From: Gemmatimonadota bacterium
Lineage (GTDB): Bacteria > Gemmatimonadota > Gemmatimonadetes > Gemmatimonadales > Gemmatimonadaceae
Direction of reading: 5' to 3'
NCBI GenBank assembly: GCA_003223425.1
Contig: QHVA01000008.1
Location: 1 to 46,632, forward strand
Length of the DNA stretch: 46,632 bases
The stretch's first letter is position 1, and every line of letters starts with the position of its first letter. The position numbers and the translations under genes are program-made. Shown here in pieces: positions 24,985 to 27,089 of this stretch. Below the pieces are notes generated by a model, which had not been told where the DNA came from, did not search any database, and saw only the letters and a list, made by a program, of their open reading frames with translations.

Positions 24985-25230
24985 GTGCGCAAGTTCGCAG
25001 CAGTCGCGGCCGTACTGGCCGTTGTCTCGATCTCGGCTTGCAAGAAGACGGGAGAGGGAGAGTACCAGGTTGAGAGGCCGGTCATTGGAACGCAGACGGA
25101 CACCATCCACACTCCGACCGTGCAAGTAGGCACCGACACGGCGGCCGTCAAAGTGCCGAAAGTACAAGTGAAGACGGACACTGCGAAGATCAAGGTTCCG
25201 ACGGTGAAGGTGAATCCGCCGAAGAAGTAA
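24985..25230 (+). CDS. Small repeat-containing lipoprotein (81 aa)
   Basis: The N terminus, RKFAAVAAVLAVVSISACKK, is a lipoprotein signal with lipobox ISAC, so the mature protein begins at the cysteine. The mature part has three tandem 14-residue repeats of the form (G/K)TDTxxxxxPxVxV, the last two TDTAAVKVPKVQV and TDTAKIKVPTVKV, then NPPKK. The alternating polar/hydrophobic pattern predicts beta-strands, perhaps a short solenoid or a wall-binding tail. The GTG at 24985 is chosen because GGAGGGGGAGGG precedes it by about seven bases. A TTG at 24919 would put a long non-signal extension in front. I do not recognise the family. Confidence 0.72.
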   Translation: MRKFAAVAAVLAVVSISACKKTGEGEYQVERPVIGTQTDTIHTPTVQVGTDTAAVKVPKVQVKTDTAKIKVPTVKVNPPKK

Positions 25231-25267
25231 CTTCTTACTTACTGGGCGCGAGCGCCGCCTAACGAGC

Positions 25268-25301
25268 AGAAGAGCCCCACCAACTTTGGTGGGGCTCTTC
25301 T
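25268..25301 (+). terminator. 15-bp hairpin after the lipoprotein gene, terminator-like without T run
   Basis: Arms 25268-25282 and 25287-25301 pair perfectly (core GAGCCCCACCA/TGGTGGGGCTC) around the loop ACTT. No T tract follows, so it may act as a transcript end stabiliser rather than a true Rho-independent terminator. Confidence 0.6.
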
Positions 25302-25320
25302 CGTTCGCGTGTTGAACTGC

Positions 25321-25454
25321 AACTGAAGACTACCGGCCGGGGGCCGTGGGGGCGTGCCCGCTGTGGGCTGAGTGCTGTTTCTTTGAATCGCTTTCGTAGA
25401 AGCCCGTAGCCCTGAGCCGCCCCGCCCAAAGCCCCCAGCCGGTAGTCTTCAGTT
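25321..25454. repeat. Long inverted repeat (24-base arms, 86-base spacer)
   Basis: The left arm 25321-25344 and right arm 25431-25454 are inverted copies with one mismatch. The outer 17 bases (AACTGAAGACTACCGGC and its complement) are perfect. The spacer is GC-rich, with smaller complementary pieces (GGGGCG/CGCCCC, GGGCT/AGCCC), so the whole 134 bases can fold into one branched hairpin. No open frame of note lies inside. A run of nine A follows the right arm and leads into the SRP RNA promoter. It could be a palindromic mobile or repetitive element, or a structured RNA. The arms were not noticed elsewhere in the window. Confidence 0.85.
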
Positions 25455-25474
25455 AAAAAAAAATCCTCTCTGCG

Positions 25475-25483
25475 TGCTATATT
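25475..25483 (+). promoter_or_regulatory. Extended -10 promoter of the SRP RNA gene
   Basis: TGCTATATT is an extended -10 element (TGn plus TATATT) six to seven bases before the predicted 5' end of the SRP RNA. There is no -35 match at the right distance. The A-tract at 25455-25463 may act as an UP-like element. Confidence 0.6.
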
Positions 25484-25488
25484 TCATC

Positions 25489-25588
25489 TGCCCCAGGTCC
25501 CGGAGGGCGTTAGCCCGCTAACTCCGTCAGGACCCCGAAGGTAGCAGCGGCATGCGGTGTCTATCGTTGCTCCGTAAGACCTGGGGTA
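25489..25588 (+). ncRNA. ffs: Signal recognition particle RNA (small bacterial type, 4.5S)
   Basis: The SRP RNA binds Ffh and, with FtsY, targets nascent membrane proteins. The 100-base region closes with a perfect terminal stem (CCCCAGGTC at 25491-25499 with GACCTGGGG at 25578-25586, extendable by G-T and T-A pairs). It contains the conserved Ffh-binding region GTCAGG...GG.AGCAGC (25526-25547). The apical part reads GGACCCCGAAGGTAGC, giving a five-base CCGAA loop where most bacteria have a GGAA tetraloop. It lies directly before dnaX, a common position for this gene. The boundaries are set from the terminal stem. Confidence 0.92.
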
Positions 25589-25601
25589 CTCCCGCCTCGC
25601 A

Positions 25602-27089
25602 ATGTCTCTCGCACTCGCCCGCAAATACCGACCAAAGACCTTCGCTGACGTAGCCGTCCAGTCGCACGTGTCCAACACGTTGCGCGGCGCCATCGCCAGA
25701 GGCAGGGTCGCGCACGGCTACCTCCTTTGCGGACCCCGCGGTGTCGGCAAGACGACGCTCGCCCGCGTTCTCGCGATGGCGCTGAACTGCGAGAACAAGC
25801 GGGAGGATGGCGAGCCCTGTGGAGAGTGCATTTCCTGCCAGCGTATCTGGAGCGGCTCCTCCAGTCTCGACGTCGTCGAAATTGATGCAGCCTCGAATCG
25901 CGGCGTCGATGACGCCCGCGAGCTCCGTGAGCGCGCAATGTACGCGCCGTCGGGAGAAGATCGTTTCAAGGTCTACATCGTCGATGAAGCGCACATGCTG
26001 ACGCGCGAGGCGTGGAACGCACTGCTCAAGATTCTCGAGGAGCCGCCACCGCGCGTCATCTTCGTCTTCGCGACGACCGAGCCGCAAAAAATCGCGCAGG
26101 CAGCTGCGCCGGTTCTCAGTCGTCTGCAGCGTTTCGACCTCAAGCGCATCGGACTCGCGGACATCATCAAGCGGCTGTCGGCCGTGCTCGAGAAGGAGGG
26201 CGTGACGGTCTCTGATGATGCACTCTCGATGATCGCGCGCGCCGCCGACGGCTCGATGCGCGATGCGCTGAGCCTCGCCGACCAGGTGATATCGATCGGA
26301 GAAGGATCGGTGACCGCCGAGCGGGTGCGTGAAGCGCTTGGATTGGTGCCGGAGGATGAATTTCTGGCGATCCTCGACATCATCGGCGGACACCGCGCCG
26401 GAGACATCTTCGACACCGTGACCAAATTGGCCGATGCTGGTGTGGACTTCGGGGTGTTCCTCTCCGGCTTCGCCGATATCCTCCGCGCTCAGCTCACAGT
26501 CGTTCTTAACGGCAAGGCCGAAGGAGTCTCGGCGACCGCGGCGGCGGCGTTGCGGGAAACGAAGGACCTTTTCGCCGCCGGGGATTTGCTTCGTATGATC
26601 AGTGCCGTCAACGCGCTCGAGCCAACCTTCAAGAAGAGCTCGCAGCAGCAGCTCCTGATCGAAATGCTTCTCGTTCGAATGGCTTTGCTCGATCGCACCG
26701 TGGCGCTCGAGGATTTGCTGAAGGGTCTCGGTGGAGAATCGACGGACGCTGGAAGAATCGAATCGTCCAGCGGTTCCGTGCGTGCGCAGGCGGCCCAGTC
26801 ATCGGTTGCCCGAACGGCGCAACGGCCAGATACTCGCCCGGGATATCCCCCGCAGCTCGAAGCGCCCAATACCCTTCAGCCCGACGCGCCTCCCAAGGCG
26901 TCTGCCGCTGCTCCGAATGAATCGCAGCTTCGCGAAATGAAGCGTGCGATGGAAGCGACGGCACAGGATTCGAATCGGAGTCGCATGACGCCCGAAGCAC
27001 TGAAGGAGGAGCGGATCGGGCTGCTCCGTCAGAAGGATCCTGCACTCGGCGTCGCGATCGACGAGCTTGATCTCGAGCTCCTCGATTAA
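25602..27089 (+). CDS. dnaX: DNA polymerase III gamma/tau subunit
   Basis: DnaX is the ATPase core of the clamp loader that places the sliding clamp on primed DNA. The opening is LARKYRPKTFADV, followed by the Walker A motif CGPRGVGKTTLAR (about 44-56). A zinc-binding CENK..CGECISC, VVEIDAASNRGVDDAREL, the Walker B motif VYIVDEAHMLT and the SRC-like region ATTEPQKIAQAAAPVLSRLQRF complete the AAA+ core. Domain III runs to about residue 370, and a low-complexity Pro/Ala/Ser linker and a short C-terminal helix follow. At 495 residues the tau-specific end is short. I saw no clear frameshift site that would make a gamma form. The ATG is 13 bases after the SRP RNA. Confidence 0.97.
   Translation: MSLALARKYRPKTFADVAVQSHVSNTLRGAIARGRVAHGYLLCGPRGVGKTTLARVLAMALNCENKREDGEPCGECISCQRIWSGSSSLDVVEIDAASNRGVDDARELRERAMYAPSGEDRFKVYIVDEAHMLTREAWNALLKILEEPPPRVIFVFATTEPQKIAQAAAPVLSRLQRFDLKRIGLADIIKRLSAVLEKEGVTVSDDALSMIARAADGSMRDALSLADQVISIGEGSVTAERVREALGLVPEDEFLAILDIIGGHRAGDIFDTVTKLADAGVDFGVFLSGFADILRAQLTVVLNGKAEGVSATAAAALRETKDLFAAGDLLRMISAVNALEPTFKKSSQQQLLIEMLLVRMALLDRTVALEDLLKGLGGESTDAGRIESSSGSVRAQAAQSSVARTAQRPDTRPGYPPQLEAPNTLQPDAPPKASAAAPNESQLREMKRAMEATAQDSNRSRMTPEALKEERIGLLRQKDPALGVAIDELDLELLD

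Follow-up and report, generated by a model that had tools for sequence, protein, structure and literature searches.

The 134-nt palindrome considered here is intergenic, lying upstream of ffs, between dnaX and ffs, in the 46,632-nt stretch of DNA from a Gemmatimonadota bacterium that was analysed as a whole and that we call the window. Its arms, at 25321-25344 and 25431-25454, are complementary at all but one of 24 positions and enclose an 86-nt spacer; they extend to 30 nt at 90% complementarity (25321-25350/25425-25454) and are directly followed by a run of nine A at 25455-25463. This bears out the inverted repeat described in an earlier sequence-only reading of this DNA, and it is the only such repeat in the window: no second one with at least 23 of 24 paired positions and a spacer of up to 150 was found there, nor did any appear in 20 mononucleotide shuffles. 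The large hairpin proposed in that reading likewise holds, with a predicted RNA fold of -83.7 kcal/mol (z -7.8) that none of 200 shuffles equalled and a z of about -8 for either strand. In many other copies the similarity begins 6 nt earlier, at AACTGC. The features discussed below are the following:

25315-25454, no strand: the whole element, a palindrome without a gene, counted from the outer hexamer AACTGC (25315-25320) that it shares with other copies
25321-25350, minus strand: left arm, read as the 3' arm of a putative former S23P gene, per the orientation of gene-bearing copies at the ffs site
25425-25454, minus strand: right arm, read as the 5' arm of the putative former S23P gene
25373-25409, minus strand: probable S23P leader remnant, aligning with the ffs-site S23P leaders of genomes G011 and G014 and not with that of G010
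25268-25301, no strand: separate hairpin outside the element, by comparison with relatives a probable terminator for the small gene upstream
25492-25588, plus strand: SRP RNA gene (ffs), a neighbour outside the element

The hairpin at 25268-25301 precedes the palindrome and has a perfect 16-bp stem; we regard it as probably terminating the upstream gene, and a scan of 25200-25620 for consensus promoters and terminators listed none, passing over this hairpin as well. At the Rfam gathering threshold the window yields SRP RNA alone. Read by eye, TGCTATATT at 25476-25484, before ffs, resembles an extended -10 box. The further suggestion that the palindrome could influence SRP transcription is unsupported, as TATATT, also read by eye, precedes ffs in each of the 15 regions seen, whether or not the element is there.

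The host assembly, a MAG with relatives named Gemmatimonadaceae, comprises 2.52 Mb in 247 contigs and is 86% complete. Comparison of the 134-nt element with it gave 53 alignments; because a palindrome matches both strands, these were merged by hand count into 28 sites, of which 16 are full inverted pairs and 12 are solo halves about 54 nt long, the arm tip being present in additional tandem copies at some of them. Such a search of the genome and relatives for the arms had been proposed in the sequence-only reading, and what it found is a multi-copy element rather than a single copy without compensating changes. The gene-less form is near-constant in length: with ends placed manually at the tips, 15 of the 16 full copies measure 125-134 nt and the remaining one 171 nt. 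The best host copy is 84% identical to that in the window, no near-identical pairs were seen among the copies in the assembly, and the window and other host copies are old. By our own codon-based caller, which overlooked the small gene preceding the window element, none of the 28 sites overlaps a called gene, 13 of the 16 full copies lie within 60 nt of a gene 3' end, and 7 of the 12 solo halves begin no more than 23 nt past the end of a same-strand gene. Among the candidates scored (14 in many genomes), the repeat occurs in 13 of 61 genomes, host included: 12 of these are among the 19 of the genus, and one is among the 42 others, where the 29-nt match at E 4e-4 is taken for chance. Across a set of species-level bacterial and archaeal genomes, which possibly leaves the host's own records outside, the exact arm pattern recovered 10 stretches in five MAGs named Gemmatimonadaceae, Gemmatimonadales or Gemmatimonadetes.

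The same arms also surround a gene. S23P is a protein known from insertions in rRNA. Its family, PF05635 (23S rRNA-intervening-sequence protein), was matched 72 times across 17 of the 19 genus genomes, exclusive of the ffs-site frames of G010 (at a contig end) and G014 (shortened, at an assembly gap). Window-type arms flank S23P at 8 places, in G001, G004, G011, G014 and G017, with six of the frames intact, one G014 copy lacking a start and one G011 copy broken; one of the 8 is the dnaX/ffs site of the sister species G011. The complete form runs from a 5' arm through a leader and the S23P gene to a 3' arm, about 0.6 kb in all, and those gene-bearing copies whose bodies were read show no gene besides S23P. 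Three of the proteins, including the one at the ffs site of G011, carry the name four helix bundle protein (TIGR02436); among solved structures, those most closely related to the G011 protein are 2gsc (from Xanthomonas campestris, XCC0516) and 2rld.

Usually the 3' arm also codes for the tail of S23P: in 6 of the 8 copies the last residues are encoded there, ending PPTAPGR or similar, and in the G004 copy and the G011 ffs-site copy S23P stops before it. On the minus strand, the left arm of the window reads GHAPTAPGR-stop, an S23P-type C-terminus, and the other arm reads AAPPKAPSR-stop. These readings fit a former minus-strand S23P gene, which is also how the copies of G010, G011 and G014 are oriented; as the G011 ffs-site gene ends before its arm, the tail reading draws on the other copies. 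Furthermore, part of the interior of the window copy aligns with ffs-site S23P leaders such that shuffles did as well in 1 of 5000 cases for G011, 0 of 5000 for G014 and 1246 of 5000 for G010. The match is short, and the gene-less copy L036 scores equally, so the alignment points to family membership and not to orthology.

The region upstream of ffs is visible in 15 genomes, G004, G005, G008 and G016 not being among them, and five of these regions carry arms of the window's family (G011, G014, G010, G017 and the window itself). G011 holds a complete element with its S23P gene; by eye, G010, G011 and G014 all show the same arm beside a reverse-strand S23P-like frame; and G017 retains both ends of an S23P element, 73 nt at 84% and 62 nt at 79%, without the gene. 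Homologous copies of the window element are present in the host and the genus, and both gene-bearing and internally deleted copies stand at the ffs site. Nine regions (G001, G003, G006, G007, G009, G012, G013, G015 and G018) appear by eye to be without window-family arms, and that of G002 (L066) has a different long palindrome whose best match is to the arms of another S23P subfamily (score 29, without shuffle control). On the right side, the flanks in the window and in G010 resemble each other, suggesting an insertion common to both. In a DnaX tree, whose inner nodes have low support, the carriers fall within one part of the genus, mixed with non-carriers. Shortening in place is seen elsewhere, with a stub in G011 where G014 holds an S23P element and a half in G009 where G005 holds a full palindrome. 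No target-site duplication was found at ffs, where the empty regions are too diverged, nor in the pairs G011/G014 and G005/G009, which present in-place deletions, an assembly gap and ambiguous differences and no clean filled/empty pair. Several GCAGTT hexamers in a row come after the S23P-element end at L155/L091 (G014:C51) and likewise at L159 (G011:C5).

No S23P gene with window-type arms was found in the 86% of the host genome that the assembly covers. Its single PF05635 match (L102, G000:C29:6675-6980) is flanked by arms unlike those of the window; it is of another type (MRAYRLA..) with very long inverted arms (score 110), and part of its sequence recurs beside the solo half L048. That solo half also gave the one candidate in a search for S23P remnants beside host copies (33% over 129 residues, E 2e-4, composition correction off). 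The S23P-like matches at L045 and L055 were set aside, being located at the arm and looking like arm-encoded tails, as was that of L049, well over 1 kb away. Given that the sole PF05635 match has other arms and that near-identical copies were not seen, the family of the window element looks inactive in the host.

Inverted arms accompany S23P well beyond the window's family. Taking an inverted-arm score of at least 18 as a pass, and the 62 of 72 genus sites with 250 nt on both sides as testable, we found such arms around 54 S23P sites, the other 8 being without clear arms; of 216 positions picked at random within these loci, 0 passed. PF05635 also matches in 105 of 200 genomes of other genera of Gemmatimonadota; there, 27 of the 28 top-scoring S23P loci had full flanks, and 19 of the 27 pass, with 1 of 140 controls. 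Among 14 plasmid loci chosen from 44 PF05635-matching records (12 from cyanobacteria, one each from Gemmatirosa and Azospirillum), a test that took in the last 60 nt of the S23P gene detected inverted arms in 10, and in 0 of 70 controls; in Oscillatoria (L226) the flanking repeats run in the same direction, contrary to the inverted-arm rule. Across these three samples it is S23P, and not one arm sequence, that is the constant part.

These inverted repeats are built partly on a degenerate 7-nt period. Identity at lag 7 is 0.44 (z 22.5) in the 54 genus S23P arms, with 7 the best lag in 39, 0.64 (z 19.5) in 19 arms from other genera, with 7 the best lag in 16, and 0.55 (z 15.6) in the 32 inner arm halves of the host's 16 full copies, whose heptads are degenerate; all of these z values are overstated, many arms being related. 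Among the plasmid S23P arms, lag 7 is the best of lags 5-9 in 10 of the 12 that were of sufficient length.

The S23P genes themselves are under purifying selection. By simple counting, 10 of 12 pairs gave a dN/dS of 0.07-0.20 and two were saturated; of the 8 pairs judged syntenic, one of which compares fragments, seven fell within that range and one was saturated. In the 45 of 54 armed elements for which both neighbours were called, the neighbour on the S23P 3' side converges on S23P in 37 (p 2e-5), that on the 5' side is unbiased (24 of 45), and S23P is antisense in 18 of 23 codirectional contexts (p 0.01), counts that are not independent because some elements are orthologous. Divergent contexts are rare around the genus elements (3 of 45). 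The orientation bias is not general, since S23P lies in sense between genes at many annotated cyanobacterial loci.

We consider it likely, at a probability of roughly 0.78, that the palindrome derives from an IVS/S23P-type element, being a MITE-like form without the gene that spread in the past via S23P and, in the window copy, is now an immobile relic without a role for ffs. Its identity as such a derivative appears well supported by the comparisons made here, in that copies are dispersed, the same arms flank S23P genes, including one at the same site, and an S23P-type tail is retained. We speak of a derivative, and not of a member, because the S23P frame is absent from the window copy and present with the same arms elsewhere. 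Set against IVS/S23P elements, the window copy has the inverted terminal repeats in a long stem, and heptameric repeats are present, in degenerate form, in the host's full copies; it has no S23P frame within its 134 nt and is intergenic, not in an rRNA gene. Mechanistically, S23P supplied by complete copies may have recognised the arms, letting complete and gene-less copies alike spread in the past, and this action on the arms is the step that we prefer for that spread. Arm transcripts would form a duplex cleavable by RNase III, in the manner reported for the IVS of Coxiella; an intergenic copy might therefore do little harm. The window copy would by now be immobile and of no use to ffs.

Alternatively, the arms could be MITE ends moved in trans by an unrelated transposase, S23P being a mere passenger in the larger version. 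No target site or enzyme was identified, S23P is not known as a transposase, and gene-less copies outnumber gene-bearing ones with window-type arms, all of which would suit that account; however, S23P of other clades, genera and phyla also lies between inverted arms, of different sequence, and the gene-bearing copies that were read show no other gene in their bodies, which makes it unlikely. The mobile palindrome proposed in the sequence-only reading as REP/MITE-like fits in its MITE half, on the strength of the 28 host sites, near-constant length and shared tips, and is unsupported in its REP half, the host assembly having no PF01797 match. A REP/REPIN element mobilised by a RAYT would account for intergenic singlets and inverted pairs, yet PF01797 (Y1/RAYT) is absent from the host assembly and found in just 3 of the 19 genus genomes, two of which (G006, G015) lack the repeat and one of which (G016) has it, and the unit is about 54 nt long. 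Such an origin is unsupported, and we give it hardly any credence.

The other proposal, a structured RNA, could be framed as a host-useful RNA or 3'-end element, such as a processing or protection site, kept by selection. The strong fold, the proximity of full copies to gene 3' ends and some paired changes in the outer stem would be expected of it, and the covariation score of the copies (0.093 vs 0.076 +/- 0.008 in shuffles, with 9 of 500 scoring as high) leans the same way. That excess is slight, however, and across the 16 copies, arms from the same copy resemble each other no more than arms from separate copies do (an equal or higher value in 17298 of 20000 permutations), which together argue against selection on the hairpin of the gene-less copies; 9 of the 15 ffs regions are, moreover, seen without a copy. 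The proposal thus gains weak support at best, and we judge it very improbable, though less so than a RAYT origin.

The reading as an S23P-element derivative has its closest parallel in Coxiella burnetii, where an IVS in the 23S rRNA gene is described as having a 28-bp terminal inverted repeat and heptameric repeats before the S23p frame, as being cut out by RNase III and as having known gene-deleted variants, with its being a transposition remnant or carrying a mobility gene cited as unproven ideas (PMC4990558). The terminal inverted repeat, the S23p frame inside, the heptameric repeats and the gene-deleted variants are features of both systems as so described, whereas the Coxiella IVS sits in the 23S rRNA gene and the elements of the genus lie between genes, in many copies. 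The likeness to MITEs lies in short, gene-less, multi-copy units with inverted ends and larger gene-bearing relatives with the same ends; unlike in MITEs, the gene of the larger relative is S23P and not a transposase, and target-site duplication was not seen. REP/REPIN elements share the intergenic singlets and inverted pairs, but the host assembly has no RAYT, and the unit of the window element is longer and G-rich. Arrays of heptameric G-rich repeats are described in Xanthomonas and Nostoc, many as inverted pairs in Xanthomonas, in a paper whose available parts make no mention of S23 (PMC4692102); judged from those parts, the 7-nt period, the intergenic location and, often in Xanthomonas, the inverted pairing are common ground. 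In partly narrow searches of the open-licence literature, we found no paper linking S23P with intergenic inverted repeats and no S23P-heptamer link outside the Coxiella IVS.

The window element represents a dispersed form of an element type already known, which suggests that rRNA insertions with S23P are part of a broader, dispersed class. The nature of IVSs, their possible mobility and the function of S23P have been standing questions since about 1990. A genus with dozens of armed S23P loci, gene-less derivatives, occupied and empty sites, and purifying selection makes the idea of IVS mobility testable. S23P elements are also a possible source of unexplained heptanucleotide repeats, offering an origin for arrays described without one. 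More tentatively, and at somewhat short of even odds, S23P with inverted heptad arrays may form a general class of transposase-less intergenic mobile elements, of which the rRNA IVSs would be the best-known insertions and the cyanobacterial and Xanthomonas heptad arrays the arms and gene-less derivatives, with S23P, which is distantly related to Avd, an accessory protein of DGRs, acting as an RNA- or DNA-binding mobility factor. Of five S23P proteins compared with Avd models, the two from cyanobacterial plasmids match, below the curated cut-offs, and the three from the genus gave no match. On cyanobacterial plasmids, S23P genes are also found within CRISPR operons, at L214, L218 and L224 (cas6 - S23P - cas4; cas10 - S23P - cmr3 module).
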